Positions 18,590 through 55,683 are shown, counted from the first letter of the stretch. The stretch is 64,000 nucleotides of DNA from Anoxynatronum buryatiense (GCF_900182905.1 NZ_FXUF01000001.1:310001-374000); one strand, 5' to 3'. Program-made: numbers and translations. Notes: generated by a model not told the origin, from the sequence alone.

Positions 18590-19300
18590 TTATTTGAAAT
18601 GGGGAATAGCCATTTTTCTTCTTCTTTCCATCATCTTCAGTTCCCGATCCATGTAGTGGTAGATCAAACTTCCTTCAAGAAGCAGCTCCTTCACAAATGT
18701 ATCCGCAAATGCATTTACCAGCTGCTTTTTAAAAGGAGTCGCCATTGGGCTATAGGTGTAGACATAAGCGCATATTTTTCCTGCATCTTCTTCATATCTA
18801 CCTTCTCTGCAATCTTCAAAATCAACCCCGAAAACGGTGTCAGTCCATAAAAAATTTCGCAGATTGACATCAGCCATGATCATTCTCTTACCCTCAAGCT
18901 CCTTCGTTATCTGATAGAACCTTTCCAGCCAGCCAGTCAACAATCCTATTATTTCCATTGTAGACTCTGGCAGATGATCACCCTCTGTCCATTTGCATTC
19001 CTGTTTTTCAAATGCCTCACAGAGAGTAATTCCGTCGATGTATTCCATCAGCAAATAGCTGCCTTGCTGCTCATAAACAGCAGGCACTTCAAGTCCCTGC
19101 CGATGCAGTGCCGTTATCATTTCCATTTCCTTCACAAGGCGTTTATGATCTTGATAGGCCTTCAAGACATATTGTTGAGGCGTCCCATCACTTTTCCTGG
19201 CCTTTATCAGCCACACCTCATTTTTTTTGCTTTTAAATGTTTTGATTCTCTCAAAAACCGCCTCATCATGTTTTTGCCAGAAATGATTGCTCAGTATCAA
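18590..19300 (-). CDS. Kinase-like protein 1 (RIO/WaaP-like fold) under a Moco riboswitch
   Basis: A 236-residue cytosolic protein with a minimal protein-kinase-like fold: Lys47 in VLKAY, acidic residues near 58-60 for the alpha-C contact, hinge region LLMEYIDG (about 83-90), catalytic loop MADVNLRNF (Asp144, Asn149) and the metal site GVDFE (Asp160). The HRD His and the DFG Gly are replaced, as in RIO, APH and LPS-kinase-like families. The substrate is unknown. A paralogue lies at 52954-53742 with the same GVDF block and downstream YxxNP/YSP region. TTG start behind AAGGAG. It is preceded by a Moco riboswitch and a second leader RNA, so a role in Mo/W cofactor metabolism is inferred. Confidence 0.7.
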   Translation of the reverse strand: MILSNHFWQKHDEAVFERIKTFKSKKNEVWLIKARKSDGTPQQYVLKAYQDHKRLVKEMEMITALHRQGLEVPAVYEQQGSYLLMEYIDGITLCEAFEKQECKWTEGDHLPESTMEIIGLLTGWLERFYQITKELEGKRMIMADVNLRNFLWTDTVFGVDFEDCREGRYEEDAGKICAYVYTYSPMATPFKKQLVNAFADTFVKELLLEGSLIYHYMDRELKMMERRRKMAIPHFK

Positions 19301-32423: not shown

Positions 32424-32438
32424 CTTCCTTGCCTCTCC

Positions 32439-32645: not shown

Positions 32646-32693
32646 GGTAACCTCCTGTCCGTCCACACGAGAAACCAGGGAAAATAGAAGTTG

Positions 32694-37962: not shown

Positions 37963-38055
37963 TTTGCACCAGCCTCCTTTTTGTGTGGAACATATGACCT
38001 TCCATCTTATCTGTGTCTTGTATCGACCCCTTTCAGAGTATCCATTCAATCGCTG

Positions 38056-38589: not shown

Positions 38590-39126
38590 TCAATCAGCAG
38601 AAGTGTACTCCTTCGGCAAATATCGACCTATCAAAAGTGCCAGCATTCCTCCCAGCATTGCAGTATAAAACTGAGGCAGAGAAAAAGCATGAATCAGCCT
38701 GTCCGGCATTCCAGGCATAAACTGAGCAGCAATCAAACGAATAGAAGACGCCATGATGGCGTATTTAAACAACGCTGCTGCCACCAGCGCCATCATTTGA
38801 TTGATTCGTTTCATCTTGATTGCAGCCCCATAAAAAACAGTGATAAACGCCGCATTCCCCAGCACCACAACAGGTACCAGCAAAGGCATTGGCATAATGC
38901 CAAGCATAAATGCCATTACCGGGGTTATACAGCCGATCATTACCGCGTGGAAAGGACCCACAGTCAACACGGCCAACAGCAAGGTCATATTGACTAAAGG
39001 CCCTACAACTGGTTGGGCAAATGGCATGAACCCAATTTGAAAAATAAGTGCCAAGGCCAATAATACTGCTGATTTCGTTAATTGGTGATGAAGTATGCCG
39101 GCATTTTTTTGTACAGGTTCTGTCAT
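38590..39126 (-). CDS. ECF transporter S-component-like membrane protein under a Moco riboswitch
   Basis: A 178-residue integral membrane protein with about five or six hydrophobic helices (AVLLALALIFQ, PLVNMTLLLAVL, VMIGCITPVMAFMLG, LLVPVVVLGNAAFI). It resembles S components of ECF vitamin transporters. No EcfA or EcfT gene is in its own unit, so it probably shares the module at 41121-43516. Riboswitch 4 and its terminator stand directly before it, which suggests a Moco-related or Mo/W-related cargo. The neighbouring aldehyde oxidoreductase genes follow in the same direction without a clear terminator. Confidence 0.7.
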   Translation of the reverse strand: MTEPVQKNAGILHHQLTKSAVLLALALIFQIGFMPFAQPVVGPLVNMTLLLAVLTVGPFHAVMIGCITPVMAFMLGIMPMPLLVPVVVLGNAAFITVFYGAAIKMKRINQMMALVAAALFKYAIMASSIRLIAAQFMPGMPDRLIHAFSLPQFYTAMLGGMLALLIGRYLPKEYTSAD

Positions 39127-39573: not shown

Positions 39574-40128
39574 TTATTCTTGACAATTCACTTCGATTTC
39601 GACAAGATTGCCCAGAAACCAGGGTTGATTATCATCACTGGGGTCACCCTTCCGTTGTCCCATGAACAGTCTTGGACGCTGTCGGTCATAATCGTCTTCC
39701 GTCAGTGGGCGCGGTGTCCACTGGACTGGCCCTTGCGGTACCTGATCATCAAACATTGCAGCTGCATAAAGAGCAATCACAGGGTCAACCCTGGTTTCGT
39801 TGGCGAGGGTGAGGCCGGGGTAATAATAACGGTTGGTCAGTGCTCCCAGCGATGATTGATAAGTGAGCCCGTCGCTGGCGAAGAAGGTTATGGCAAGTTG
39901 AGGATTGACCGTCACATCACCTGTCTGAAGCAACCCCAGAAGAGAATACCCTTTCACTCGCCAGATTTTGTGAAATCCCAAATGATTGTTGGATGAGAAA
40001 AAAACTTCCTGAAAGTGTTGATTTGCCAGTGTCCACTGAGATGGGTTCAGCACCACTGGTCGCTTTAAGGCCGTTCCAGAAACCACGACACTTCCCGGTT
40101 CATGGGCCGGATCATAATAATCCTTCAA
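39574..40128 (-). CDS. SUOX-like domain protein without signal peptide
   Basis: About 184 residues forming one molybdopterin-oxidoreductase-like (sulfite oxidase fold) domain. It shares SSNN(H)LGFHKIWRVKG and RLFMGQxxxDPSDxNQP with the lipoprotein encoded upstream and with the first domain of the 1504-residue protein. No signal peptide or lipobox is visible. The TTG start has AAAGGAG at 8 nt, which lies across the stop of the preceding gene. It could be cytosolic or a part split from the preceding lipoprotein. Last gene of the surface/ECF operon; no terminator is evident. Confidence 0.65.
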   Translation of the reverse strand: MKDYYDPAHEPGSVVVSGTALKRPVVLNPSQWTLANQHFQEVFFSSNNHLGFHKIWRVKGYSLLGLLQTGDVTVNPQLAITFFASDGLTYQSSLGALTNRYYYPGLTLANETRVDPVIALYAAAMFDDQVPQGPVQWTPRPLTEDDYDRQRPRLFMGQRKGDPSDDNQPWFLGNLVEIEVNCQE

Positions 40129-40133
40129 TGATT

Positions 40134-41114
40134 TCACTCCTTTCGTTCCTGTCCCACCACAATACGCACCAGCTCCCTGAGAAACATTGGCTGATTAATA
40201 TCACTGGGATGATCCTGTTGCTGCCCCATGTATAGCCTGGGCCACTGAGGGTCACGATCTGAAGCTGTCAGCTCTTGGGTCTGCCAGTGCACTGGCGGTT
40301 GTGGTTCAATGGCATCGAAGACTTCTTTTCGATAGAAGCCGATGAGCGGTCCAATGAGCTGGCCTGTATCTGTCGTTAAGTCTGAGAAGTAGTAGCGATT
40401 CTGAAGAGAGCTCCACTTCTCGCTGTAAATCACCCCATCAGCAGATTCAAAGGTGATCAAGTAATCCTCATCAGTTTTTAATCCAGCTTCTTTCAAAAGG
40501 GATCCCAGGTCATACCCTTTCACCAACCATATTTTATGGAATCCCAAATTATTATTGGAAGAATAATAGCGTTCTGTCCACCAGGGGTGATTCAACTGCC
40601 ATTCAGAAGGATTCAGCACCAGCTCATTTTCCAATCCGTCTCCAGTAATGATAAGTGCCCCCGGTTCAGCTTGAACCCGAGGTGTCATCTCCCGAAACTC
40701 TTTTTCAGAAGCTTCCACTGGTTCATAATCTTCGGAAGAAACTATGATTTTAGACCCTTCTGATTCGTTATCATCAGAGTGGCTGTTAGTGGCTTCAATT
40801 TTGTCAGTTTCGTCAACTGCTTTTCCAGCCTCATGAAAATCCTTGGGATCACTGGATTCAACTGCTTCGTCAGGTGCCTCCAACTCGTCAGGCACATGGA
40901 TTTCTTCCACCGCTTCAGAAACTTGCTGTTCAGCAGCAGTCTCCCGCGTTACTTCTTCTGCCGGTTCCACCTCTTTTTCTATTCCGCAGCCGGTCATGCA
41001 GCTCATCATCAGCAACAGTAACAGCAACACGCCTGCCATAAAAATGGTCTTGCCCGCCAAACAGCCACATCTGCGCCAATGAGTCATCCTCACGCCATCA
41101 ACCCCTTCCATCAT
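40134..41114 (-). CDS. Lipoprotein with SUOX-like domain
   Basis: A lipoprotein of up to 326 residues: a positively charged N terminus, hydrophobic stretch with lipobox MTGC, an acidic Glu/Asp/Ser-rich linker (about 55-145), then one SUOX-like domain with SSNNNLGFHKIWLVKG and RLYMGQxxxHPSDINQP. The Mo-ligating Cys of sulfite oxidases is missing. It is presumably anchored on the outer face of the membrane, close to the ECF transporter encoded upstream. The start is uncertain; GTG or ATG codons up to 27 bases downstream are alternatives. Confidence 0.72.
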   Translation of the reverse strand: MMEGVDGVRMTHWRRCGCLAGKTIFMAGVLLLLLLMMSCMTGCGIEKEVEPAEEVTRETAAEQQVSEAVEEIHVPDELEAPDEAVESSDPKDFHEAGKAVDETDKIEATNSHSDDNESEGSKIIVSSEDYEPVEASEKEFREMTPRVQAEPGALIITGDGLENELVLNPSEWQLNHPWWTERYYSSNNNLGFHKIWLVKGYDLGSLLKEAGLKTDEDYLITFESADGVIYSEKWSSLQNRYYFSDLTTDTGQLIGPLIGFYRKEVFDAIEPQPPVHWQTQELTASDRDPQWPRLYMGQQQDHPSDINQPMFLRELVRIVVGQERKE

Positions 41115-41120
41115 ACCATC

Positions 41121-41951
41121 TTATCTCAAAGCCGCCCAGATGATTCCAAAAACCAGGGGAATCACAGCCATCCCCCTTTTCTCTGCTTTTGACATTAACA
41201 GCGTTTCCCGATACTCTCTGTGATCCGTCAAACCAAAAGCTCTTATTTCCATGGATACCGTCAGTGTATCCACTCTTCCCAGTACCGAGATCACCAATGG
41301 TACTAACAAGTATCGAATACTGCGCACCAGTTTGGCAGGCGATAACCCCTCAAGATCGATTCCTTTGGCCATCTGAGCGTTTTTGATTTGATTTAGTTCC
41401 AGATGAAACAGCGGGATGAATCTCAGTGCTGTGATCAGCATGAAGCCTGCCCGATAAGGAAGACCAGCCTGCATCAGTGTGTACGCCAGTTGATTGGGAT
41501 TCGTGATGGCAACAAACAAATAGCTTGATCCGATGACATTGATAAAGCGAAATACCATTGCCAGCCCTCCCAGAAGCCCTTCCGACCAAACTTCAAATGA
41601 AAAAAAACTCCCCTGGAAATGCCAGAGAAGCACTCCCGTTCTAACCCATAATACCTGGGCCAGCAACATCATTAACCCAAACAGCAGGATCCACCGCAAT
41701 TTGCGAATAAAGAAATCCCATCCCAATCCTGCTGCTCCATAAGCACTGATGAGAATGACCAATAACAACATTCCTCCAGCCACAGAGGTCACCAGCATGG
41801 CACAGATGCTAAAGCTAATCAGCAGCATCAATTTGACACCTGGATGAACTCGATGCAGCGATGAAGTTCCTTCCACATAACTCAGTCCCGGAAAAAACCC
41901 CTTCGATATCGGCGAACTCGTTTTACTTTTTGGTGAACAGGCTGCCTTCAT
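41121..41951 (-). CDS. ecfT: ECF transporter transmembrane subunit
   Basis: A 276-residue membrane protein with about six helices. The cytosolic coupling helices carry the EcfT motifs: one in QMAKGIDLEG, one in SMEIRAFG. It joins the ATPases to the S component. Its start codon overlaps the stop of the ATPase gene (TGATG). Confidence 0.88.
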   Translation of the reverse strand: MKAACSPKSKTSSPISKGFFPGLSYVEGTSSLHRVHPGVKLMLLISFSICAMLVTSVAGGMLLLVILISAYGAAGLGWDFFIRKLRWILLFGLMMLLAQVLWVRTGVLLWHFQGSFFSFEVWSEGLLGGLAMVFRFINVIGSSYLFVAITNPNQLAYTLMQAGLPYRAGFMLITALRFIPLFHLELNQIKNAQMAKGIDLEGLSPAKLVRSIRYLLVPLVISVLGRVDTLTVSMEIRAFGLTDHREYRETLLMSKAEKRGMAVIPLVFGIIWAALR

Positions 41952-43516
41952 CAGTCTCCCCCTTCTTCACCGATCTGCACATGTCCACAGGCTGGCAGGT
42001 ATTCATGGTGTCCTTGGGCTTTCAACATTTGAAAGGCCTCTGCCGTAGGTGCATCAATAGCGATGCTTCCATCCTTCACAAACAGGATCCGTTGGCAGAA
42101 AGTTTCCACCACTGCCGGTTCGTGACATACCATCAGTACTGATCCACCCTGCCTTCGATGATACTGAAGCACATTCATCAAAGTCAGCATCCGTTCTCGG
42201 TCCTGGCCCACCAATGGTTCATCAAGAATAAGGAGAGATGGACCATAGGCCAGCACCGACACCAATGCCAATCTCTTTTTTTCTCCCAGACTGAGGGTAA
42301 AGGGATTCTTCTCCCGATATTGGATCAGATGGAAATCCTCCAATAGATTTCCGGTTATCTCCTCAACAGCGTCAGAAGAAGTCTCGCTGAGAAAGGAGGC
42401 CGGCAGCAGCGCTTCACGCCATACACTGTTTTCAAATAACTGGTGATGGGGATTTTGAAAAACCAGTCCCATATGCCGGGCACGATAAGCTACTTTTTTC
42501 CCAGTCATCTCTTCCTGCTGAAACCAGATTTTTCCTCCAGAAGGTTTGATGATTCCAAGTAAAGAAAGGATCAACGTGGTTTTGCCACTCCCATTGTCAC
42601 CCATAAGGGCAACGGTTTCACCTGGCGAAAGTTGAAAGCTCACATCTGACAAAACCACTCGGTCTTCATACCCTGCCTGAAGATGTTCCACACTGAGCAA
42701 GGCTTGCTCAGCCACAGATACTTCTTCGTCACTTGCCTTACTGTGCCTGCTTTGATCGCATGATTCGAAGGCCTCAGGTACATAGCTGGTTTGAGATGCC
42801 GCCTCCAACCCTCCCTGGAGCATTACAGCCCTGTCAATGCTACTTGCAATCCTTCCTTGATCCATCCGGATCAATCGGTCCGTCCATGGCAGCACCTGTT
42901 CCAGTCGGTGTTCAATAATCACCAGAGAAACGGCCTGTTCCCGCTGCAGTTTCGCCAGCACTTGCAGCACTTCCCTGGTGCAACGGGGGTCCAGATTGGC
43001 GGTGGGTTCATCCAAAATCAGGAGAGCAGGTTTCATGGCCAGTACCGAAGCAATGGCGACACGTTGTTTTTCTCCTCCTGATAAGGTGTGCACCTGACGA
43101 TGAAACAAATGCATACCATCCACTGCCTCGAGAGATGTGATGACTCGGCTTCGAATCTCTTCCGGCGGTACACACAGATTTTCGGGACCAAAGGCCACCT
43201 CATCAGCGACGGTGAGGGTGCAGAGCTGCCCCTCGGGATCTTGCTGAACAAGTCCCACAATTCCCGAAAGCCCTCCCTCAGGGTACTTACGGGTATCGTG
43301 TCCCTGAATCAGTACTTCCCCCATCATTTCTCCCGGAAAAGCAGTGGGGATAAAACCGGCGAGGCACATGGCCAGCGTGGACTTGCCACACCCACTGGGT
43401 CCCGTAATGGTGATAAACTCCCCAGGGTAAAGACGTAGATCCACCTGTGATAATGCAGCATTCTGTTCCCCTTGATACGTAAACGTAAGTTGATTGATTT
43501 CAATCACAGGTGTCAT
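41951..43516 (-). CDS. ecfA: ECF transporter ATPase, two ABC domains in one chain
   Basis: A 521-residue fusion of two ABC ATPases. First domain: GPSGCGKSTL, LSGGEKQR, LLILDEPTANLD. Second: GDNGSGKTTL, LSLGEKKR, LLILDEPLVGQD. Both nucleotide sites look intact. Fused EcfA pairs are known with the YkoE-type importers, which matches the S component upstream. Start set to the ATG nine bases behind AGAGGG. Confidence 0.9.
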   Translation of the reverse strand: MTPVIEINQLTFTYQGEQNAALSQVDLRLYPGEFITITGPSGCGKSTLAMCLAGFIPTAFPGEMMGEVLIQGHDTRKYPEGGLSGIVGLVQQDPEGQLCTLTVADEVAFGPENLCVPPEEIRSRVITSLEAVDGMHLFHRQVHTLSGGEKQRVAIASVLAMKPALLILDEPTANLDPRCTREVLQVLAKLQREQAVSLVIIEHRLEQVLPWTDRLIRMDQGRIASSIDRAVMLQGGLEAASQTSYVPEAFESCDQSRHSKASDEEVSVAEQALLSVEHLQAGYEDRVVLSDVSFQLSPGETVALMGDNGSGKTTLILSLLGIIKPSGGKIWFQQEEMTGKKVAYRARHMGLVFQNPHHQLFENSVWREALLPASFLSETSSDAVEEITGNLLEDFHLIQYREKNPFTLSLGEKKRLALVSVLAYGPSLLILDEPLVGQDRERMLTLMNVLQYHRRQGGSVLMVCHEPAVVETFCQRILFVKDGSIAIDAPTAEAFQMLKAQGHHEYLPACGHVQIGEEGGD

Positions 43517-43567
43517 CTCTTTTTTCCCTCTCTGCATTTGGCCTTACTATTGACGTTCTCCAACCGA

Positions 43568-44650
43568 TTATCGGACCACAAGACGATTCACCATTTTAAC
43601 CCAATGGCCGCCAGGGTAAGCGCCGGCTATCAGTCTTAGTGTGTCTGATTCTTCAATCAAAACCATTTCATGGTCATCCATCACGTCCTGCAAATTGAAA
43701 GTCACTGTATAGCCGTCTGAAGCAATCACTTCCAAAGTAACAGCATCAGGCAATGGTTCCACCTGTTTCAGGATTACCCATATGGGGATGCCTGTGTATT
43801 CCTGAGGTGGCACATGGGTGATCTCACCAATCAGCTCTGCTGTAATGGTGGTGGTTGCATCGGACATTTGTGACAGGTTCAGGGTCGCCGGATTCTCCAC
43901 AGCCCCTTCCACCCGCAGAGCTGGCCCTCTGCCCGGCAGTTCGAACACGAAGGTAAAGTAGTAGAGTGCTCCTGCAGATAAGGCAAGGGTCAGCCCCAGA
44001 GTGATCCAGTGCCTTCCTTTCAACCGCTGACGTTTGTGATCAGCCTGAAAATCATGGCTGGCAGCACCACTCATACGAATGGGACGTGCCTGAAAAACCA
44101 TTTCCATAACACTCATGGCAAAGCTTCCTCCCAACAATGCGCCAGAAAAAAAAGCCAGAGTGCTGATGAAAAAGAGATAGGTGATGGGCGCTCCCGAAAA
44201 GTAGAGGAGCTGAAACATCACCACATTGGAAGCAGCAGCCAGTCCACCGGCGAGCATATAAGCCGGCAGTGAATGACGCCGCCACAGCAGCAGGACCACT
44301 TCCACCAGAAATCCCTGTACCAACGAGATCATGACGATTACTACGCCATGAGTACTCCCTGTGAGAAGTTCAATGACTCCTTTCAATAATCCGGCCATCG
44401 TGGCAGCCCCTGGTTTACGCACCAATCCTGCCGCCAGCACAATCCAAAATACATGCAACCCGGCAACAAATTGACCTGCACCAAAGGGAACCCCCAGCAT
44501 CCGATTTAGCAAATTTCCCAGGTAGCCCACATAGGTGCTCATCACACCTCCCAATCCGCTGAGGATGGCAATGATCAGCAAGTCACGGTTGTGCCAGTAG
44601 CGCGCTTTTCCTGAGTCAGTCTTTAAGGTGTTGTTTCTTGTTGATTCCAT
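43568..44650 (-). CDS. YkoE-like ECF S component fused to a SUOX-like extracellular domain
   Basis: A 360-residue fusion. The first 180 or so residues form a YkoE-type S component with five or six helices (GLGGVMSTYVGYLGNLLN, GAGQFVAGLHVFWIVLAAG, RKPGAATMAGLLKGVIELL). After another helix (about 210-230) comes a single SUOX-like domain (LRVEGAVENPATLNLSQM, YTGIPIWVILKQV, VIASDGYTVTF) predicted outside. YkoE relatives import thiamine or its precursor; here the fused domain and Moco riboswitch suggest another ligand. Start at the ATG behind GGAGGTG, overlapping the phosphoesterase gene by 28 bases. Confidence 0.8.
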   Translation of the reverse strand: MESTRNNTLKTDSGKARYWHNRDLLIIAILSGLGGVMSTYVGYLGNLLNRMLGVPFGAGQFVAGLHVFWIVLAAGLVRKPGAATMAGLLKGVIELLTGSTHGVVIVMISLVQGFLVEVVLLLWRRHSLPAYMLAGGLAAASNVVMFQLLYFSGAPITYLFFISTLAFFSGALLGGSFAMSVMEMVFQARPIRMSGAASHDFQADHKRQRLKGRHWITLGLTLALSAGALYYFTFVFELPGRGPALRVEGAVENPATLNLSQMSDATTTITAELIGEITHVPPQEYTGIPIWVILKQVEPLPDAVTLEVIASDGYTVTFNLQDVMDDHEMVLIEESDTLRLIAGAYPGGHWVKMVNRLVVR

Positions 44651-46254
44651 GGAATCACCTCCAGGCGGTTGACCATTCGAACCCATACACTGCCTGCTGA
44701 TAAATAATCATGCCCTCCCAAACCTGGCAATGAAGTCTTCAGCAGATTCTCGTTATCAAACACACCATCATCCGGTAAAAAAGCTATTCGGTAGCCATCT
44801 TCCCATTCGGGTAAAGTTGATTGATTATAGGCGATAGCCAACACCATATCTCCCTGTTCATCGTACCATCCCGATGACTCAGGATACACATTTTCATAGG
44901 CAAAATCCTGTCGATAGCCATCCCAGGAATGAACCCGCAGGAAATCATCAAGTGTCATACCCCCCACCAAGTCAACCAGGTCTTTCACTGGAACACCACG
45001 GTAAGTTCCTTCTCCCCGAAAATTGCCATGAAAATTCTGAAAGCTTCCCTTTCGTGATAAAACAGCCATTTCATCCAGGGTATCCGCTGGCAGAATGAGA
45101 TCACCTTTGCTGCCAGTGATCACCACATCAGTGCTGCGCGGAGGCGCTTCCACTGGAATCGGTGTCACCAGCAAAGGTTTTGCCAGAGTGACCAACGTAT
45201 AGTGATAAAAACCACCTTCATCTTCTGATGCATAGAGCCGGGCACCAGCACCACCACTGATCACATGGTCGACTCCTGCTTCATTGCGATGATGGAACAA
45301 ATGCACATGACCGGCAAAAACTCCCTGAACCTTCAGTTCAGGCTCAGCTATCAGTTCATAGAAGGCCTCTGCTCCACCGATATCAAGAAAGCCATGGCTG
45401 CGACCCCGGGGATCCGCTGGCGGACAGTGCATGAACAAGAGTTGCTGGGTGTCTTTCACGTGGTTTAACTGTGCTTCCAGTCGACTGAGTTGCTCCCCTG
45501 TCATGTTCAGGGAAGAAGTATCCAACAGAAGAAACTTGAAATCTCCCAATTGAAAGCCGGTTTCCCGGGGACCTATCAATGATTCAAAGTATGCCATTCC
45601 ATCTCCTCTGACATCGTGATTGCCAGGCACCGCATACCAGGGAATGGTCAGGGCTTCCATGGTCTCCAGAAAGGCACTGTATTCTTCCGGTTGTCCTGAT
45701 GGCACCAGATCGCCCAGATGGATAAGAAGGCTTGCTTCGGTTTCATTGATTTCTTCAATGATCCGAGCCAGCACATCATCGTTTCCCTGATTGTCGCCCA
45801 CAACCGCCATGATCAGGGGTTTCTGTGGCAGGTTCCGGCTCCAGTCTGCATAAATGCTCTGAGGTTCAGATGTCAACGGCACCTGCATCATAACAGAAGT
45901 AGGTGTGAGGGTTTCAAAGGCGACAGGCGTCATCCTTGTTGTCTCTCCTGTTTGTTCATGGATCACCTGAAGATGAGCTGCCCATACATTTTTCAGATTT
46001 ATTCTCATCATTTGTCCATCTTTTTCAGCTTCCGGTAAGTGGATGATGGTTTCAGGCGCTGTTGCGCGAACCTGAAGCTTATCTTTCTCATGAGCAGTCA
46101 CCACTCCTCCGATGACACCTACTTCAACGTTTTTTTCAGCCAGTGGAACACAGGCGCAGCAGGCAAACAGGATCACCAGTAAACCAGTCAGTACCCAATG
46201 ATAGGGAGTTGTCAGCCGTTCATTATGGCTATTAGCACTTTGCAGGTCTCTCAT
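44623..46254 (-). CDS. Secreted metallophosphoesterase with C-terminal SUOX-like domain
   Basis: A 543-residue exported protein. A signal or anchor helix lies near residues 20-40 with a Cys-rich CCAC. A calcineurin-like phosphoesterase domain (about 145-370) has VVGDNQGN, HLGDLVPSG, GNHD, MHCPP and GHVH; the first motif has GDNQ instead of DxH. The C-terminal 160 residues form a SUOX-like domain (STDVVITGSKG, YRGVPVKDLVDL, GYRIAFLPDDG). The combination suggests removal of phosphate from a bound ligand at the surface; the substrate is unknown. Confidence 0.8.
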   Translation of the reverse strand: MRDLQSANSHNERLTTPYHWVLTGLLVILFACCACVPLAEKNVEVGVIGGVVTAHEKDKLQVRATAPETIIHLPEAEKDGQMMRINLKNVWAAHLQVIHEQTGETTRMTPVAFETLTPTSVMMQVPLTSEPQSIYADWSRNLPQKPLIMAVVGDNQGNDDVLARIIEEINETEASLLIHLGDLVPSGQPEEYSAFLETMEALTIPWYAVPGNHDVRGDGMAYFESLIGPRETGFQLGDFKFLLLDTSSLNMTGEQLSRLEAQLNHVKDTQQLLFMHCPPADPRGRSHGFLDIGGAEAFYELIAEPELKVQGVFAGHVHLFHHRNEAGVDHVISGGAGARLYASEDEGGFYHYTLVTLAKPLLVTPIPVEAPPRSTDVVITGSKGDLILPADTLDEMAVLSRKGSFQNFHGNFRGEGTYRGVPVKDLVDLVGGMTLDDFLRVHSWDGYRQDFAYENVYPESSGWYDEQGDMVLAIAYNQSTLPEWEDGYRIAFLPDDGVFDNENLLKTSLPGLGGHDYLSAGSVWVRMVNRLEVIPWNQQETTP

Positions 46255-46270
46255 TTCAAAATCCTCTCCA

Positions 46271-46837
46271 TCACTTAACTTCCAATGTGATGATATGTCT
46301 CACCCAATAAGGTTTGTTCACATCACCTGGCTCCCGTTGACCAATCACCAGCTGGAATGGATTTCCTTGATCCGGGTCAAAGGCCTGACCCGCCTGTTCC
46401 CAGGCAATGATCATGGGATAGGTGCTATCAGGATTTTGCTCGTCCAGATAGTCTTTCCGTTGAACCTCTTCCAATGTGTACGTCACCTGATAGCCATCTT
46501 CAGCTACAATGGTCACCTGGGTGGCATCAGTCTTCAGTTGAACGGTTTCCTGCAGCAAATGCCACAGCCAGACGCCTTTGAAAGCAGTGTATTCCCTTGT
46601 TCCGTAAGAGTTTAGGGAAAAGAAGTCGGCTTCCACCAATCCGGCCTCCATTCCTTTCATTTGTTCCAGGCTTACCTTTGCAGGAGCCAGAATGCCTTCC
46701 CCATTGATTTCGATTACAGCCTTGTCGTCCCCGGTTTTTTCACTGCGACAACCATTTGTAAATAAAACAGTCAGCAGCAGTATACCCAGTAATAATCGAA
46801 GCCATTTCTTATGAGCAGAGGTGTATCCTATGGTCAT
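46271..46837 (-). CDS. Small lipoprotein consisting of one SUOX-like domain
   Basis: A 188-residue lipoprotein: hydrophobic signal, lipobox FTNGC near residue 28, then one SUOX-like domain (VIEINGEGI, YTAFKGVWLWHLL, TIVAEDGYQVTYTLEEV, LVIGQREPGDVNKP). No cysteine follows the lipobox, so the Mo-ligating residue of true sulfite oxidases is absent. It is one of six genes in this operon with the same domain. The 209-base gap to the next upstream gene shows no clear element. Confidence 0.77.
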   Translation of the reverse strand: MTIGYTSAHKKWLRLLLGILLLTVLFTNGCRSEKTGDDKAVIEINGEGILAPAKVSLEQMKGMEAGLVEADFFSLNSYGTREYTAFKGVWLWHLLQETVQLKTDATQVTIVAEDGYQVTYTLEEVQRKDYLDEQNPDSTYPMIIAWEQAGQAFDPDQGNPFQLVIGQREPGDVNKPYWVRHIITLEVK

Positions 46838-47046
46838 TCCGTATTCGCCGCCTTCCTGTTACCTTTGGTTCCTCTTTCTCATCTGCCTTCAGGATTCAGC
46901 TTCAGGCAAATTTCAGTCCATCCACGCCAAACAGGAAGGAAGCAGCGAATCGCGCCACCTCCTTCAACTGTCATGGTCCATCAACTCAGCACCTATCGTT
47001 TACGGCGCATCCTTCACCATCATTCTCATTGATTCCTGATGCCGTT

Positions 47047-50000
47047 TCACTTGGAAAATCCGAACACGCCTTTAACAATCCCTCCGTTGGTGCCGACCCA
47101 CAAATGGCCATCAGGTGATTCTGTCACCGTCCAAATACTGTCAAAAGAAGCCAAAGGAAGGATGTTTTCAGAATGATTCACCGTGATGGTGCCATTGAGA
47201 CTTCGATGATACAAACCACTTTGAGTGGTTCCGATCCAAATTCCATTTCCACTTTTGTCAGGATATATGAGCCGTATGCTGTCTTCATCAGTCAGATGTG
47301 GCAGCAGTTCCCGGTCGCTGTGATAGATGGTTCGATTCCCTCGCGGGTCTATATAGTCGTTTTTTCCGAACCGGGAAATCCAAACGCCACCCTGAAGGTC
47401 AGGTGCAATTTCTCGAATCCAGCTGCCTGAGAACTCGCCCGAATCATTAGAGTACACTGTTATTTCACCGCTTCGATTTCTGTAAGCATAGCCACCCTGA
47501 TACCCCGCTTCAGTCTCTTTTGGGTAGAAACCCATCCACAATCCGCCCTGATCATCAGGGGTCAGTACCGTCACTGAGCTGGCTGGCAATGATTCATCTG
47601 TCATCAGCTGCCAATCACCGCCTGCCGAACGATATAATGGTCCTGCTGCCGTTCCAAACCACATGCCGCCCCGGGAATCCTGTGCAATGGCCTGGGCAAA
47701 GTCAGTTCCTGTGGGTAAGGCATCGGCACTGGTGTATACCTGCCATTCTTCCCCTTTTTTCTCCACAATTCCCATTCCAGACTCAGGACTTCCACCAACA
47801 AACCATACACCGCCGCTGGCATCAACGGCAATATCATAGACAGTATCGTGGGGCAATGGGCTGTTCTGCTGATTGAAAAGGGTCCAGCCCCCAGCGGCAT
47901 GACGGTAAGCTGCTCCACCGCCATTGGTTCCCACCCAGAGACCTCCCTGCTGATCAGTGGAGATGACCCTCACGCTGGCCCAGGGGAGCCCCTCTCCGGT
48001 ATCATTTCGATGGCTTTCCCAAGTGTACCCTGGGGTACGTTCCATGGAAGGTAATCCCGCGGAAGCATTGCTCGTTGCCATGGGCAGCTCATCCGCCTGC
48101 AAATCTTTTTCCAACGGCTCTTCATACTCACCTGTGCCCACCACGATGCAGTCAACCCACTTGGTCCACATGGACTCATTTTCTTCCACATACAACCGCA
48201 GCGGTCCATATTCATTATTGTGCACATACCCTTCACTGTGAGCATGCGGTACCAGCGGGTATCCGTTAAGTGCGTATCCAAGAAGTACTTCTTTCCTTTC
48301 TCCCCGGCTGTTCACCATGCCATTCATCACATCATTGGTCACCTGCAGCTGATTGTAGCCAGGCCCTGCGTACACTCGAATCCCACTGGGAACGCTGACA
48401 CCGTCAGTCAGTTCCACCACTTCTTTGATCAGATTCCAGAGCACCAGTCCTTCCACTTCAGCAGTGCCGGAAATCACATCACGTATGATATGCTCATCCA
48501 GAGCCTGAAGCTGTCTCAAACTAAAAGTGCGGGGTTCTTTCACCTGTGAACCGGTGATCCGAAGAACAGGAATGTCCAGATACTGTGTGTACATGCCCAC
48601 GTTGTGTTTCCAGCTGTCACCCGCTGCTGCAGTCACTTTGATCTCAGTCACATTGCGGACCATTTTGCCACTGTTCTGGTCACCTTTTTCTGTCTGGCCG
48701 ATCACCAGGCGCAATGGACCGCCACTATTATCAACTGTCGACACATAGCCTTCTGAAGTGTCATCCGGCACCAAAGGCGTTTCATTTTTGCCATAGGCCA
48801 AAAGAACCAACAGGTCATTGGCACCACTGGCTTCATTGATGTAGTCTCTTTTACCAATCTCTTCCAGCAAGAAAGTGCGGCTATAACCGTCGGCAGCCAC
48901 CACTGTCACCTCATTGGCTCCCGCCGTCAAGCCCACTTCCTGTCGAAGATATTCGTAGAGATCAATTCCCCGATATGTTTCTCTGGTTTGATGATTGTTT
49001 CTGTCAACTATAGCGTAGTCTGCCATGGTGATATATTGCTGCATCAGCTCCAGTTCAGCCAGTGTGATGACAGTTGCCTGCCTGACACCAGTCCCGGTGA
49101 AAGAAATGGTTTCATCTGCATACTGGTCATATGGCATGGATAGATGCGCCCAGTGATCTTTCTCCACCTGCACCCTGATACTGATAATCTGGTCAAGATG
49201 ATGCCCGGGTCTCCCTTGTTGCGATTGACCAAAAATCACCTTCAGTGGACCGCCTTGATTATGAATGGAGCCACCTTGATAACCATCACTTTCAGCGGTT
49301 TCAACCAGTGGATATCCATTTTTCCCAAAAGCAAGCAGCGGATGGAGGTTGTTGGAACCATTGACTTCATTAAAGTAGTCTTTTTTTAATATGTCTGCCA
49401 GCGTCACCGTCAGCGTTTCGCCGACCACATTCTCGAAGGTGACCGTCCCCATGGTTCCTGGCAGTCCGATTTTTTCGAACAACAGCTGACCAAGCCCAAT
49501 CCCTTCATAAAGATCAGAAACCAGATCCTTCTGATCATCATCTTGAGTGACGTAATAAGCTTTCACCCGTGAAGCATCCCTTTCTCTGGGAGTGCCACCA
49601 TATACCAACTCTTCTACTTTGGACAGATTCATTTTTTCTGATGATACCTTCACACCTTCCTCATCAACCACTTCCAGACTCAACGACCACTCATTCAGCT
49701 GTGTGTATGGAGCTGTCTGGTGGGTGGTATGATCCGCAGGATCCCCGATTATCACTCTTTTGGCAAGCTTCACCTGATGAGATCCATTGGTGTGGTCATA
49801 GCTTCGCTTGCCAAAAATAATGCGTAACGGTCCGTCAGCATTCCGAAGGCCTGAGTTGTGCCCTTCATCTGATGGATGCAGTACATAGGGGTATCCATCG
49901 AATCCATACGCCACCATGACTGGGTATCCACTCTTTAACGCCGGCACATTGCTTCCGTCGAACTCACCATCGCCCTGATCCAGGGCATCCTTTTCATAGT

Positions 50001-51561
50001 ACCCCCATCGGTCATGGTGCTTCAAGTCACCCACAGTCACCGGCGGAATCTGGTAATAATCCGCCGCAATAAAGGTGACCGGTGTGGCTTCATCAATGTT
50101 TTCATCCATTCCGGAAGCCAGCAACAGGTCCCAAAGGGGTATTCCTTTATACGTATTGTAATACCAATAGTGTTCACTATTGGACAAACTGTATTCCTTT
50201 TCAAGGTGCAGGGCCGCCATTGATTCCAGCTCTGCCACTGTGTAGTTCACTTCTTTTCCAAGCCCACTGCCCGACAGGGCAAATATATTATTTGTCAGCT
50301 TTGGATCATTGTAAGGAGGCACTGCATGCTCAAAGCCTGGTCGGGTATTCTCCTCCACATAAAGATACGCCACATTGGTGAAAGCCACCGGCTTTTCTCC
50401 AGGCGCCGGATGATAAACAAGTTTAAAACATCCATTATCATTGGCTGCGACGGCCTGGTAACCGGCATCTGTCCGCTCATAAACCAGTGGTACTTCGTTA
50501 ATGCCATAAGCCACCATCATTCCCCGCTGTTGGTCTCTAATTTCATCAAGGGTGAAAGAAGCAATGATTCTCCGGTTCACATCCCTAAAAACCACTTTAC
50601 CAAGATTCTCTCGCAACGTTACAAAATGATCCAACAGATGCGCCACCCGAACGCCTTCATATTGATTAGAACGAAGAACACCATTCATCATTTCCTGATA
50701 TGTATCCCGATGGATGCCGGCGATTTCTTCTTCAATTTGTCGCAGAGACAAAGCCCGGTAAGACTCCACTCCTGGGCCTTCAATGGTCATGGTGGCTCCT
50801 GTAATTGAATCAATATGATAAGGAGCACCTTCATAGGAAGTGTGCCGGTAAGGACTGTTTCCAAATGCGTCTGCCGATGCAGCCGGCATCGAACCTGTTG
50901 AGGCAGCCGACCGTTCCTCACCCACAACAATGCGCCTCAGGTCGCGGATGAAATTCATCTGATTAATGTCACTGACTTTTCCGGATTCCTGACCCAGATA
51001 CAAACGCGGCCCTTCAGGGTCAAGGTCTGCTATTGACAATTTCATTTCAGACCAGGCCACAGGTGCTTTCAGTTCATTCCCCGGAACATCCAACAGTTCT
51101 GTTCGAAAACTGCCAATCACGGGGGCCACTTTCACTGCATTACCTGGCATCATGTCTGGATGAGTCGACAATGCCATTAACTCATCAACCGTCCAGGTCC
51201 GCTTAAATCCATCAGCAGCAATGAACGTAATCTTTTGTGCCCCACCACCTTTTAACCCAGCTTCCTCCAGCAGTGAAAACAAGTCAAACCCTTTGACCTG
51301 CCAAATTTTATGGAAATTGAAATTGTTGTTGGAAGAAAAAATGCGTTCCACCATCTGAGGATGATTGACGTTTTGCCAGTCAGACTGGGTTAGCGTCACC
51401 TCACGCTCCACCCCTGTTCCGGTGATGACAAGAGATCCAGACGCTGCGTTGGCTCGAAGAACTTCCACAGGAAAACCCGTCAACAGCGAGGTCAGGACCA
51501 GTGCCATGGTCAAGATCAAGGCAATAAGTTGTTTGGAAAGATTTCTTTTCATGGAATTCAT
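47047..51561 (-). CDS. Giant surface protein: about six SUOX-like domains plus a two-component-regulator-type propeller
   Basis: A 1504-residue exported protein. Signal peptide to about residue 40. SUOX-like domains at roughly 42-217, 260-420, 430-610, 620-820, 825-995 and 1000-1140, recognised by repeated FIAADG/VVAADGYSRTF, YGKNGYPLV and GGPLRLVIGQ patterns. From about 1170 to the end come repeated GGLWVGTNGG, GGVWF, GGMWFGT, GGLWMG, GGVWIS, NGIWIGT and GHLWVGT blades of a Reg_prop-type beta-propeller. D251-SITGAT matches the ApbE flavinylation consensus. No SLH domain or lipobox; the SLH protein encoded upstream may hold it. Function unknown; ligand capture is inferred. Confidence 0.78.
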   Translation of the reverse strand: MNSMKRNLSKQLIALILTMALVLTSLLTGFPVEVLRANAASGSLVITGTGVEREVTLTQSDWQNVNHPQMVERIFSSNNNFNFHKIWQVKGFDLFSLLEEAGLKGGGAQKITFIAADGFKRTWTVDELMALSTHPDMMPGNAVKVAPVIGSFRTELLDVPGNELKAPVAWSEMKLSIADLDPEGPRLYLGQESGKVSDINQMNFIRDLRRIVVGEERSAASTGSMPAASADAFGNSPYRHTSYEGAPYHIDSITGATMTIEGPGVESYRALSLRQIEEEIAGIHRDTYQEMMNGVLRSNQYEGVRVAHLLDHFVTLRENLGKVVFRDVNRRIIASFTLDEIRDQQRGMMVAYGINEVPLVYERTDAGYQAVAANDNGCFKLVYHPAPGEKPVAFTNVAYLYVEENTRPGFEHAVPPYNDPKLTNNIFALSGSGLGKEVNYTVAELESMAALHLEKEYSLSNSEHYWYYNTYKGIPLWDLLLASGMDENIDEATPVTFIAADYYQIPPVTVGDLKHHDRWGYYEKDALDQGDGEFDGSNVPALKSGYPVMVAYGFDGYPYVLHPSDEGHNSGLRNADGPLRIIFGKRSYDHTNGSHQVKLAKRVIIGDPADHTTHQTAPYTQLNEWSLSLEVVDEEGVKVSSEKMNLSKVEELVYGGTPRERDASRVKAYYVTQDDDQKDLVSDLYEGIGLGQLLFEKIGLPGTMGTVTFENVVGETLTVTLADILKKDYFNEVNGSNNLHPLLAFGKNGYPLVETAESDGYQGGSIHNQGGPLKVIFGQSQQGRPGHHLDQIISIRVQVEKDHWAHLSMPYDQYADETISFTGTGVRQATVITLAELELMQQYITMADYAIVDRNNHQTRETYRGIDLYEYLRQEVGLTAGANEVTVVAADGYSRTFLLEEIGKRDYINEASGANDLLVLLAYGKNETPLVPDDTSEGYVSTVDNSGGPLRLVIGQTEKGDQNSGKMVRNVTEIKVTAAAGDSWKHNVGMYTQYLDIPVLRITGSQVKEPRTFSLRQLQALDEHIIRDVISGTAEVEGLVLWNLIKEVVELTDGVSVPSGIRVYAGPGYNQLQVTNDVMNGMVNSRGERKEVLLGYALNGYPLVPHAHSEGYVHNNEYGPLRLYVEENESMWTKWVDCIVVGTGEYEEPLEKDLQADELPMATSNASAGLPSMERTPGYTWESHRNDTGEGLPWASVRVISTDQQGGLWVGTNGGGAAYRHAAGGWTLFNQQNSPLPHDTVYDIAVDASGGVWFVGGSPESGMGIVEKKGEEWQVYTSADALPTGTDFAQAIAQDSRGGMWFGTAAGPLYRSAGGDWQLMTDESLPASSVTVLTPDDQGGLWMGFYPKETEAGYQGGYAYRNRSGEITVYSNDSGEFSGSWIREIAPDLQGGVWISRFGKNDYIDPRGNRTIYHSDRELLPHLTDEDSIRLIYPDKSGNGIWIGTTQSGLYHRSLNGTITVNHSENILPLASFDSIWTVTESPDGHLWVGTNGGIVKGVFGFSK

Positions 51562-51586
51562 GATGGCACCTCACTTTTATTGTCTA

Positions 51587-51618
51587 ACACCCGGCAATCT
51601 TATAGGATCGCCGGGTGT
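51587..51618 (-). other. Intercistronic hairpin between the SLH gene and the giant gene
   Basis: Minus strand: ACACCCGGC and GCCGGGTGT arms around about 14 bases. No T-run follows, so processing or partial termination is more likely than full termination. Confidence 0.5.
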
Positions 51619-51644
51619 AGTTTCGAATAACTCGCAATGGTTGA

Positions 51645-52841
51645 TTAATAGAGGGTTTTAAAAATCACTGTAGCTGCTTCTGCCCTATTGACTGTTCTGG
51701 CAGGCTCAAAATCCTCTCCAATAAAATCCTGAAAAACTCCCTGAGCTTCCAACCAGGCCACTTGATGAGCTGCCCAGGCTGGCACCGCCTCTTTATCCGC
51801 GTAATCAGATTTTTCCATGACAAATTTAGCCATACGCTGCTGTTCCACCACACCGTTTTCAACTGCTGCTTTACCGGTAACAACGGCCAGCTCCTGGCGG
51901 CTGATCACCTGGTCTGGTTTGAAGGTGCCATCTGGATACCCGCTGAAAATCCCCGCATCGACAGCTGCCTGTACATGGGAAGCAAACCAGTCACTTTCTT
52001 TCACATCTGAAAAGCCGCCCCGGTAGGTTGTGGGTTCATGCCCCAGCGCTTTCACCATGATAGTGGCAATTTGTGCCCGTGTCAGGCTTTCGGCAGGTGC
52101 AAAGCGTCCATCTCCCATACCTGAGATAACTCCCTGGTTCACCAGTCCTTCAATGGCCGTTGTGGCATAGGCAAATGTTGGGGTAATGTCTGTGAAACTG
52201 ATGGCAGGACTCTCATCGCCGCTCTCTTCAAGTTCCATTTCAGGCGTTTCATCTTCTGTCTCTTCTGCAGCCTCAGTTTCTGCAGCTTCTTCATTCTCTG
52301 AAACAGCCAACGCACCGTCAACTTCAATTCGCTCAATCATCTTGAAAACTGTTCCAAATTCCCCTGTTTCTTTTACTTTACGATAAACAATGATTTCTTG
52401 AGTTTCTGGATTGTCATCTTCATCAATCATTACACCATCCACCTCATAGGCCAGCACATACTGAAGTGCTGCATCTAATACATCTTCAAGGGGCTGTGGC
52501 TCAATGGGATATCCGTCTGAAGCTGTGAAAGAGACCGTTCCCGTCACAGCAGTCACACCAGCGGCCTCGGTGAGTACGTATGCCAGGCTGACACCTTTCA
52601 CCGCAGCTGTTTTTTCACCGGCCCGGCTGTTATACACATAGGCTTCGTTAATCTGGGCTTCAGCAGGCATGGCTTTTAAATCATCAATGGAAAGCTGAAG
52701 CACCTCTGCTACTCCTGAACCGCTGATTTCAACCGCATAATCCTGTTTGTCCAGCGCAAATGTTGTTAAGGGTGAAAAAAGCAGCAACAATACCAGTAAC
52801 CATGTCATCCATCTGCATTTACCATTCATCATATCCGTCAT
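51645..52841 (-). CDS. SLH-anchored surface protein with SUOX-like domain
   Basis: A 398-residue exported protein. Signal peptide to about residue 30, one SUOX-like domain (YAVEISGSGVAEVLQLSI, VSFTASDGYPI), an acidic Glu-rich linker (about 170-205), and three S-layer homology domains that bind secondary cell-wall polymer. It would fix the SUOX-like domain to the wall. The start is the ATG 8 bases behind AAAGGAG, shortening the longest reading by ten residues. Confidence 0.85.
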   Translation of the reverse strand: MTDMMNGKCRWMTWLLVLLLLFSPLTTFALDKQDYAVEISGSGVAEVLQLSIDDLKAMPAEAQINEAYVYNSRAGEKTAAVKGVSLAYVLTEAAGVTAVTGTVSFTASDGYPIEPQPLEDVLDAALQYVLAYEVDGVMIDEDDNPETQEIIVYRKVKETGEFGTVFKMIERIEVDGALAVSENEEAAETEAAEETEDETPEMELEESGDESPAISFTDITPTFAYATTAIEGLVNQGVISGMGDGRFAPAESLTRAQIATIMVKALGHEPTTYRGGFSDVKESDWFASHVQAAVDAGIFSGYPDGTFKPDQVISRQELAVVTGKAAVENGVVEQQRMAKFVMEKSDYADKEAVPAWAAHQVAWLEAQGVFQDFIGEDFEPARTVNRAEAATVIFKTLY

Positions 52842-52953
52842 CACAATTGCTCCTTTCAAATGGCTGCCCACGGCAGTTAAGTCTATTTTTATTAATATTC
52901 AAACTATTTGTAGGATATTTTTTACTCTGAGATTTCGAATACACATTCACCTG

Positions 52954-53742
52954 TTATCCAAGAAAAAGTTGTTCCTGCTGGTGATGCCTCCGGTGAATTA
53001 ATTTGCTGATTTTTTCTTCAAGGTATTGACCGAGTATGCGTTCATCCAGCCTCAGCAACTGGATAGCTGCTTCTCTTAGCTCTTGGGTCAACTGACGTTT
53101 CCAGAGACTCCAGGCTGGATTATAGTGGAGGATATACGCCATTAAAGTAGCCAGATCAGCTTCTTTTCGACCTGCTGTGCAGCTCTTAAAATCCACCCCC
53201 GTCAATCGTTTTCCTGCAATAAAATGACGCAAATGCACTTCCCCTAAAATAACAGGCTCCCCATATACCGCGTCCAGTGCCGCATACGCTTTCTCCATCC
53301 ATGGAAGCAGTTCAAAAATCAGTTGCTTTCTCACCTGATATCGATTGAATTGTTGGTGTTTGGAATCATGCTCAGCCGTCTCAATAAGCTCCAGCAACGT
53401 GGGGCCGATGATATGTTCCATCACCAGCAAGTTACTTCCTGCGCGATATAGATTGGGGACGGAAACACCTTGCCAATATAGGAACTCCAAAGTTTTTACT
53501 TCCTGAGGAAGAAGATGTAATGTCGACAGGGAATAGTATTTCACGACAATATGCTTCTTTTCCTGATTATGGTTCTCTTCACACGCCAAGCGATAAACAT
53601 CATTTCTTTTGCTCAGATACTTTTCCACCACCCGATATTGAGTAATTCCAGTCACTGCAACAAACTCCTCATGCGGAAAACTTCGTTCGCCCATGGCACA
53701 CCTCACAATCAACATCATCGCAAACTTCACTTGATTGATCAT
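52954..53742 (-). CDS. Kinase-like protein 2, catalytic residues changed, under a Moco riboswitch
   Basis: About 262 residues from the chosen start (the frame is open to 53805). It is a paralogue of the protein at 18590-19300: VVKYY holds the lysine, LLVMEHIIG the hinge, and GVDFKSC the metal-binding Asp. In the catalytic loop GEVHLRHF, Glu and His stand where protein 1 has Asp144 and Asn149, so it may be a pseudokinase or use other chemistry. The 3' parts (AYILHYNPAWSLWKRQL) also align. It is the first gene of the riboswitch-controlled surface/ECF operon. The start is uncertain; 53742 follows an out-of-frame mini-ORF. Confidence 0.65.
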   Translation of the reverse strand: MINQVKFAMMLIVRCAMGERSFPHEEFVAVTGITQYRVVEKYLSKRNDVYRLACEENHNQEKKHIVVKYYSLSTLHLLPQEVKTLEFLYWQGVSVPNLYRAGSNLLVMEHIIGPTLLELIETAEHDSKHQQFNRYQVRKQLIFELLPWMEKAYAALDAVYGEPVILGEVHLRHFIAGKRLTGVDFKSCTAGRKEADLATLMAYILHYNPAWSLWKRQLTQELREAAIQLLRLDERILGQYLEEKISKLIHRRHHQQEQLFLG

Positions 53743-53750
53743 GGTATCTC

Positions 53751-53780
53751 TCAGTGCTTCCAGAATCTGCCTGTGATCAT
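53751..53780 (-). CDS. Possible nine-codon leader ORF before kinase-like gene 2
   Basis: Minus strand: AGAAGGAAG stands 6 bases before an ATG that encodes MITGRFWKH and a stop. The stop is 8 bases from the likely start of kinase-like gene 2, which itself has only a weak site (GAGAG). Translational coupling is possible, but chance cannot be excluded. Confidence 0.3.
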   Translation of the reverse strand: MITGRFWKH

Positions 53781-53891
53781 TTTTCAACTTCCTTCTATGA
53801 AACATTCTTTATAAAGCATCAGCGTTTAGATTTCTCTAGTAGATACCTCCTTCCGATGGATCCACACTTGACATATCTTAACCTGAGCAAT

Positions 53892-53917
53892 AAAAAAGCA
53901 CCCAAAGGAAGGCGCCT
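53892..53917 (-). terminator. Terminator of Moco riboswitch 5
   Basis: Minus strand: GGCGCCT-TCCTT-TGGGTGCT stem with G-T pairs followed by six T, between the aptamer and kinase-like gene 2. Confidence 0.8.
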
Positions 53918-53940
53918 ATATCCATTGCATTTGCAACAGC

Positions 53941-54035
53941 TCTCCTTTTCTGAAGGGGAGGCAACACCGTTTCCGGTGGTACCCAGTGGTCTGATCTCAT
54001 CGGCAACGCCCTTAGAAATTCAGACTCGGAGGCAA
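53941..54035 (-). ncRNA. Moco/Tuco riboswitch 5 (surface/ECF operon leader)
   Basis: Minus strand: CTCCGAG, hairpin GTCTGA ... TCAGAC, GGGTACCACCGGAAACGGTG, GCCTCCCC and AAAAGGAGA. The conserved order is intact; the segment before GGAG reads CAGAAAA instead of GTGGAAA. It heads kinase-like gene 2 and the operon behind it. Confidence 0.88.
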
Positions 54036-54106
54036 ACGATGACTATCATCGTTTCATCTATATGTATTTAAATGCATATCGAAATTTGAAAAAACCCTGC
54101 AGCCTC

Positions 54107-54135
54107 AGTATAGTTCACTGTGAAACGACTGTCAA
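54107..54135 (-). promoter_or_regulatory. Promoter of Moco riboswitch 5 with internal palindrome
   Basis: Minus strand TTGACA (54130-54135), 17-nt spacer, TATACT (54107-54112). The spacer contains GTTTCACAGTGAAC, an imperfect palindrome with TTCAC/GTGAA arms that could be an operator. The ModE-TupA fusion regulator is encoded just upstream. Confidence 0.85.
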
Positions 54136-55452: not shown

Positions 55453-55683
55453 GATAATAGACTCCTTTTGGCGAGAGTGTAACTCTAATAATACGTGCAG
55501 GGTCATCCATGACTATTTTTAAGGGTTTCTGCTATATGAAATTATAACATATGAGTACCAGGAAGATGTCTCTGATTTCATCGCACGCTCCCATGCAATC
55601 CATTCAATGCAAGACCGTCCCCGATATGCTTGTTTTTTAGGGCGCTAAATAACTGATGGAGAAGCTGATGGACAAAAACGCAC

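Follow-up and report, generated by a model that had tools for sequence, protein, structure and literature searches.

A Moco riboswitch operon with SUOX-like domains and an ECF importer

A minus-strand operon of Anoxynatronum buryatiense probably encodes a system that captures Moco, Tuco or a close molybdopterin derivative and imports it through an ECF transporter, a reading for which there are no binding or transport data. Our computational analysis shows a Moco riboswitch with a terminator, an ECF importer, Cys-less domains of the SUOX/PruR fold, a module conserved in other bacteria, and genomes that carry this module without Moco synthesis. In the absence of biochemistry, the identity of the ligand (Moco, Tuco, MPT or a dephospho form) remains unproven.

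The operon occupies positions 39574-54135 of the window, i.e. the whole stretch of DNA analysed, which comprises 64,000 nt of the A. buryatiense genome (GCF_900182905.1 NZ_FXUF01000001.1:310001-374000) and in which all operon coordinates are counted. It runs from a promoter through a Moco riboswitch and an intrinsic terminator into genes for a kinase homologue, an SLH protein, a 1504-aa protein, a lipoprotein, a metallophosphoesterase, a YkoE-type S component, EcfA-EcfA, EcfT, a second lipoprotein and a small protein. The features of the operon and of two further loci in the window are:

54107..54135, minus strand: sigma-70-type promoter TTGACA-17-TATACT (11/12 consensus bases)
53925..54043, minus strand: Moco/Tuco riboswitch aptamer of the P3-lacking type (RF01055, 53.5 bits, E 5.5e-10; P3 missing from the alignment)
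53896..53917, minus strand: intrinsic terminator (terminator-like hairpin), putative OFF-switch expression platform, 8 nt past the aptamer
52954..53805, minus strand: RIO/Bud32/APH-like kinase homologue with degenerate catalytic residues (D->E, N->H; weak RIO1 match in Pfam, fold from the paralogue)
51645..52871, minus strand: secreted SUOX-like domain with three SLH repeats, cell-wall anchored (SLH E 9e-32, PF00174 E 2e-5)
47047..51561, minus strand: 1504-aa secreted protein with six Cys-less SUOX-like domains and a C-terminal propeller (PF00174 E 1e-13, Reg_prop E 5e-20)
46271..46837, minus strand: lipoprotein with one Cys-less SUOX-like domain (model pLDDT 86.9; PruR Z 14.9, SoxC Z 15.1)
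44623..46254, minus strand: exported calcineurin-type metallophosphoesterase with a C-terminal SUOX-like domain (Metallophos E 2e-16; iterated HMM)
43568..44686, minus strand: YkoE-type ECF S component fused to an extracytoplasmic SUOX-like domain (PF09819 E 2e-23; PDB 5EDL E 4e-15); probable start at 44650
41951..43537, minus strand: EcfA-EcfA fused ATPases (two ABC_tran domains in a single 528-aa protein, Pfam)
41121..41951, minus strand: EcfT transmembrane component (CbiQ/EcfT PF02361 E 3e-26)
40134..41114, minus strand: lipoprotein with a Cys-less SUOX-like domain (iterated HMM)
39574..40137, minus strand: Cys-less SUOX-like domain protein without a signal peptide (iterated HMM)
38590..39126, minus strand: second ECF S component (PF12822) behind a Moco riboswitch at 39373-39255 (Pfam, Rfam)
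18590..19300, minus strand: intact paralogous kinase behind its own Moco riboswitch at 19668-19539 (catalytic residues kept; fold search)

This run and gene order had been proposed in an initial annotation made from the sequence alone, and both held in gene calls and in Pfam and Rfam searches. The kinase-like gene named there held with a correction, as the operon copy is degenerate and the paralogue at 18590-19300 is the intact one. The last gene product (187 aa) is possibly cytoplasmic because it lacks a signal peptide. The second S component stands upstream of a Mop-type Mo hydroxylase.

The operon leader carries a Moco riboswitch without a P3 stem

The aptamer match at 54043-53925 (minus strand) exceeds the RF01055 gathering score of 36. 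The window holds five of the eight Moco riboswitches found in the whole genome, the other three standing ahead of moaA, tungstate-type transport genes and a Mo hydroxylase; no TPP riboswitch was found within the window by Rfam scan. Alignment showed that the window's aptamers lack the P3 stem. P3-lacking Moco RNAs were tied to the tungsten cofactor by Regulski et al. 2008 (PMC2408646), and we infer that the window riboswitches are probably of this tungsten-sensing type.

An aptamer followed by a terminator is how an OFF switch is laid out, and such control would by analogy suit an uptake function. Among 53 module riboswitches, 35 have a terminator within 110 nt past the aptamer, compared with 0.3 expected. 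When the window leader was folded with ViennaRNA, no riboswitch switching emerged, the terminator probability being near 1 in every state tried; the inferred OFF-switch assignment of this leader rests on its layout and on the 2008 paper, not on folding.

Cys-less surface domains are predicted to share the SUOX/PruR fold

Seven genes of the operon carry SUOX-like domains, as first annotated. Pfam PF00174 alone matches four of the seven, three of them above cutoff; iterating an HMM on the domains of the window extends this to all seven, with 12 domains in total. The claimed absence of the Mo-ligating Cys also held: the aligned Mo-ligand strand is free of Cys in every window domain, and among 478 distinct domains from all fetched loci Cys reaches at most about 1% in any column of this strand. 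A D-G-[Y/F] motif, kept at 80-89% per position in the same 478 domains, aligns with the pterin-binding Asn/Asp102-Gly-Tyr104 of PruR, whose pterin contacts are Tyr104 of this motif and Trp160 (PMC13259868). PruR itself has no Cys and binds metal-free pterins (PMC13259868).

The lipoprotein domain at 46274-46750 was modelled with a confident fold (pLDDT 86.9, pTM 0.82). Its top Foldseek match is PruR (7kom, E 2e-7), and VIA-align gave a Z of 14.9 against PruR over 127 residues (2.7 A), 14.8 against the PruR-neopterin complex, 15.1 against SoxC and 8.7-15.1 against many SUOX entries. By sequence, the family profile matched sulfite dehydrogenase (E 5e-9) and PruR (E 2e-7). The domain is therefore predicted to adopt the SUOX/PruR fold, which favours pterin binding; Moco as that pterin is not shown, and binding data are lacking. 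The leader peptides, inspected by eye, are of Sec or lipoprotein signal type without a Tat motif. Export of already Moco-loaded domains is therefore hardly possible, and we infer that the SUOX-like domains are unlikely to leave the cell pre-loaded.

The S component has lost most thiamin-site residues

The S component matches the YkoE family (Pfam ABC_cobalt) and the solved YkoEDC structure, as listed above, and is an outlier, with a best identity of 30% to module S components. A midpoint-rooted tree with very long branches cannot settle whether the protein belongs with thiamin YkoE or with module YkoE. In YkoE, thiamin is coordinated by Tyr46, Trp49, Glu77, Gln95 and Asp131, of which Glu77 and Gln95 hold the pyrimidine ring (PMC5037267). 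The window protein keeps only Glu77 and Gln95, without Tyr46, Trp49 or Asp131; the module S components keep 0/5 of these residues and have a Tyr at the Trp49 position. Because a pterin, too, has an aminopyrimidine ring, retention of Glu77 and Gln95 fits either thiamin or a pterin.

The module recurs in other genomes

An S-component search of the order gave matches in 22/198 genomes, the window's genome counted in, from which 20 neighbourhoods were fetched; SUOX-like domains lie near the YkoE gene in 18/20. Two loci, L069 and L075, have YkoE with neither SUOX domains nor a Moco riboswitch. Starting from the riboswitch, the 95 Moco riboswitches of 245 class genomes independently pointed to this module in more than 12 genomes. 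Each of the 17 genomes carrying the SUOX-type module has a Moco riboswitch, compared with 18/228 others (hypergeometric p 7e-17; 245 class genomes). One genome, G226, was left out of the module count on inspection, having a YkoE profile match and no SUOX domains.

Scanning a genome collection with a module S-component profile yielded 233 YkoE-type relatives, the best 80 of which were used for module gene counts. SUOX-like domains are present in 77/80, EcfA in 74/80, EcfT in 71/80, MobB in 59/80, an NPP-type ectophosphodiesterase in 53/80, the kinase in 47/80, an FMN-binding protein in 39/80 and ApbE in 7/80, and 57/80 loci have a Moco riboswitch. Among the named carriers are members of Maledivibacter (M. 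halophilus being locus L158), Alkaliphilus, Anaerovirgula, Sedimentibacter, Pelotomaculum, Sporotomaculum and Dehalococcoidia. Where at least 7.5 kb of upstream DNA was available, the Moco riboswitch stands upstream on the same strand in 35/45 loci. An all-Rfam scan of 45 loci found no TPP riboswitch, and FMN, SAM and c-di-AMP riboswitches once or twice and never at the module head; the single FMN riboswitch (L063) does not head the module.

In relatives, MobB (PF03205, E 4e-18 to 1e-23; MobB/FeS fusion model, E 9e-44) lies between EcfT and the kinase. The window operon differs from most relatives in having no MobB by Pfam, a calcineurin-type instead of an NPP (nucleotide-pyrophosphatase) type phosphoesterase, and an outlier S component. 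We consider it a divergent member of this widespread module because of its riboswitch, the SUOX-like domain fused to its S component and its twelve capture domains. Depending on the locus, the place of the ectophosphoesterase is filled by two unrelated enzyme folds.

Given its degenerate catalytic site, the operon's own kinase copy (52954..53805) is inferred to be inactive. The kinase family and the paralogue at 18590-19300 keep Lys47, Glu58, Asp144, Asn149 and Asp160 (paralogue numbering), and orthologues of this paralogue sit at the module's end in other genomes. A fold search with the paralogue returned RIO, PRPK/Bud32, choline kinase and APH, which do not fix its substrate.

Some module genomes lack Moco synthesis genes

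Six module genomes jointly lack moaA, moaC and moeA, their completeness being 100% (G306), 98% (G251), 95% (G180), 92% (G365), 88% (G425) and 86% (G148). In G306, with no match to moaA, moaC, moaE or moeA, the module has shrunk to a riboswitch, YkoE, a SUOX domain and a gene which we take to be MobA, named from its sequence, arranged divergently from a formate dehydrogenase operon. G251 has one PF01568 Mo/W enzyme besides three of XDH type, with one XDH-type gene behind a Moco riboswitch; G180 has two Mop-type hydroxylases in the absence of moeA, and G148 has a formate-dehydrogenase-like gene with an in-frame TGA. In G425 and G365 the module is present, and a search that did not include AOR-type PF01314 found no moaA, moaC, moeA, XDH-type or PF00384 enzyme. 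Draft genomes may hide genes; here all six genomes lack the same three, and two of the six reach a completeness of at least 98%.

In the class sample of 245, the module is present in 5/5 moaA-negative riboswitch genomes versus 12/30 moaA-positive ones (p 0.019). PF01568 enzymes occur in 30/245 genomes; moaA is missing in two of these, both module carriers, which is weak evidence alone (p 0.10). MoaE (PF02391) was uninformative, most moaA-positive genomes also having no match. From these gene contents we infer that some module bacteria depend on import, i.e. are apparent cofactor auxotrophs. As moeA is missing too, the imported compound should already carry its metal, barring an unknown insertase. 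The window organism retains moaA, moaC and moeA, so import here would be salvage.

Discussion

Surface pterin capture coupled to ECF import, as put forward in the initial annotation, is supported by these results, with the ligand unproven. That annotation had named an unrelated fold, or orthologous operons under thiamine or other riboswitches, as refutations; the modelled lipoprotein domain is of the SUOX/PruR fold, and in the 45 loci covered by the Rfam scan no orthologous module has such a riboswitch at its head. The survey for missing moa genes that it suggested was positive, some of the genomes concerned keeping Mo/W enzymes, and MobB in orthologous modules and MobA in G306 are support beyond what it had foreseen. 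Its statement that no Moco importer of this kind has been described held for the literature searched, which excludes bioRxiv and most subscription journals. The parts are of known kinds; their combination and the proposed substrate are new.

In the system we propose, the operon would be switched on at low cytoplasmic cofactor. Wall- and lipid-anchored Cys-less domains would reversibly bind extracellular Moco or molybdopterin, the ectophosphoesterase would trim the dinucleotide or phosphate, and the S component would hand the ligand through EcfAAT. The kinase would then re-add phosphate and MobB/MobA remake the dinucleotide; co-occurrence is the sole basis for inferring both the trimming and the re-phosphorylation. 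An RnfG-like FMN-binding protein of relatives may serve to hold the pterin dithiolene, which is prone to oxidation, in its reduced state; this role is a guess.

Several observations speak against import. Most module genomes, the window's included, still make Moco; the PruR pocket is reportedly not large enough for Moco (PMC13259868); the window's S component, an outlier, keeps Glu77 and Gln95; G425 and G365 have the module without XDH-type or PF00384 enzymes; and the window operon has a seemingly inactive kinase and no MobB. A bolder reading, in which the module is a dedicated importer of intact, metal-charged Moco/Tuco and essential where moaA, moaC and moeA are lost but Mo/W enzymes kept, seems to us as apt to be wrong as right.

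The closest competitor of the proposed system holds that only metal-free or dephosphorylated molybdopterin, or breakdown pterins, are imported and that the cell re-phosphorylates them and inserts the metal. The ectophosphoesterase and kinase of many modules, the binding of metal-free pterins by PruR and the presence of MoeA in the window genome favour this view, whereas G306, G251 and G180 keep Mo/W enzymes without moeA, and free MPT is very oxidation-sensitive; on balance we lean slightly against it. Alternatively, the SUOX-like proteins could be flavin-linked surface redox or electron-transfer proteins, with the ECF transporter importing flavin or another vitamin. The FMN_bind and ApbE genes of some loci agree with this, but the domains have no Mo-ligating Cys, their Sec/lipoprotein-type signals without a Tat motif make cytoplasmic Moco loading unexpected, the only FMN riboswitch is not at a module head, and MobB, the kinase and the pattern of moaA loss would be left unexplained. 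We regard this alternative as improbable.

A thiamin/HMP importer of the YkoEDC type brought under Moco control would account for the 5EDL match and for the retained Glu77 and Gln95. Against it stand the lack of TPP riboswitches in the 45 loci scanned, the thiamin-site residues lost in the window protein and throughout the module, the MobB/MobA genes of relatives, and the absence of Moco riboswitches from the SUOX-free YkoE loci (L069, L075), which together make it highly implausible. Extracellular pterin sensing in the manner of PruR, the closest solved fold, instead of uptake is extremely unlikely, as the operon contains a full ECF importer and no DcpA-type receptor was found in it.

The proposed import system has known counterparts for its parts. 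YkoEDC of Bacillus subtilis (group I ECF, PDB 5EDL) shares the S-component family, EcfA/EcfA/EcfT in one operon and cofactor-type import; here, by contrast, a Moco/Tuco riboswitch takes the place of any TPP riboswitch, the thiamin-binding residues are largely lost, and surface capture domains, a phosphoesterase and a kinase are added, with MobB in relatives. The periplasmic PruR of Agrobacterium, Vibrio and Klebsiella is likewise a secreted Cys-less SUOX fold with a DGY-type pterin motif, but works with DcpA/DTB regulators in signalling, a partner not found in the window operon, whose domains have multiplied, are anchored to the wall or to lipid, and are linked with an importer. SUOX molybdoenzymes share the fold but not the Mo-ligating Cys. 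An exception noted in Regulski et al. 2008 (PMC2408646) concerns two P3-lacking RNAs of Syntrophomonas wolfei ahead of 'putative Moco-utilizing sulphite oxidase' genes; the riboswitch class is the same, whereas genes taken there as Moco enzymes would here belong to a Cys-less import module, of which we infer the S. wolfei genes to be members. MCP and MoBP of algae and plants (PMC9571131) also bind Moco non-enzymatically, but are intracellular, described as a separate family and without an importer. Caenorhabditis elegans takes up exogenous dietary Moco by an unknown mechanism, something that had been seen in no other organism (PMC9793310, 2022).

The prevailing view is that each cell needing Moco makes it itself. 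If our reading is correct, Moco/Tuco would join the vitamins exchanged between microbes, with a riboswitch-controlled importer in hundreds of anaerobes, and on the bolder reading Moco would be an exchanged vitamin of anaerobic communities. It would account for the sulfite-oxidase exceptions of 2008 to the Moco riboswitch rule and assign a role to a large set of surface proteins that at present match molybdopterin oxidoreductases; the binding proteins and transporter could be useful to Moco-deficiency research. It would also explain how Mo/W enzymes persist in genomes without Moco synthesis.

Genes bordering and ending the operon

Four features of the window lie around or at the end of the Moco-riboswitch-headed operon.

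24546-38475, minus strand: gene cluster flanked by Moco riboswitches
38590-39126, minus strand: ECF S component (PF12822), directly behind its own Moco riboswitch (39373-39255)
39574-40137, minus strand: last gene of the operon, a Cys-less SUOX-like domain protein without signal peptide
54316-55506, minus strand: gene immediately upstream of the operon, whose product joins a LysR/ModE-type HTH to a TupA-like PBP domain

The HTH-PBP fusion is likely a regulator that senses tungstate or molybdate, and genes resembling it also lie close to the modules at two loci of relatives (L178 and L222). At the other end of the operon, the SUOX-like domain of the terminal protein closely resembles that of the lipoprotein encoded just before it. 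As this protein lacks a signal peptide, it may act as a cytoplasmic acceptor or carrier.

The PF12822 S component is the second in the window and is unrelated to the YkoE-type one of the operon. Downstream of it lie the genes for a FeMo-Co-binding-like protein and for a Mop-type Mo hydroxylase, and similar S components occur in Moco-riboswitch operons of two genomes (G251, locus L103; G348, locus L110). It may represent a further uptake route, related to the cofactor or to tungstate. The riboswitch-flanked cluster encodes XdhC-like, MobA/MocA-like, MoCF-domain (MoeA-like), AMP-ligase, radical SAM, C_GCAxxG_C_C, methyltransferase and Mop-type hydroxylase proteins, and apparently serves Mo hydroxylase maturation.

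Module surroundings in relatives

Tandem Moco riboswitches were found near the module at two loci.

L060 (genome G122), 16489-16763: tandem Moco riboswitches
L230, 6096-6370: tandem Moco riboswitches

Two genomes related to each other, G425 (L143) and G365 (L144), carry the full module with a Moco riboswitch; moaA, moaC, moeA, XDH-type and PF00384 enzymes are all missing from both, in a search that did not include AOR-type tungsten enzymes. At L071 (genome G022), the module runs on into ApbE, NusG_II and Gx-transporter-like genes, beyond which a second Moco riboswitch occurs with moaC-moaA-MOSC and tupA. This layout hints at a redox step linked to flavin.
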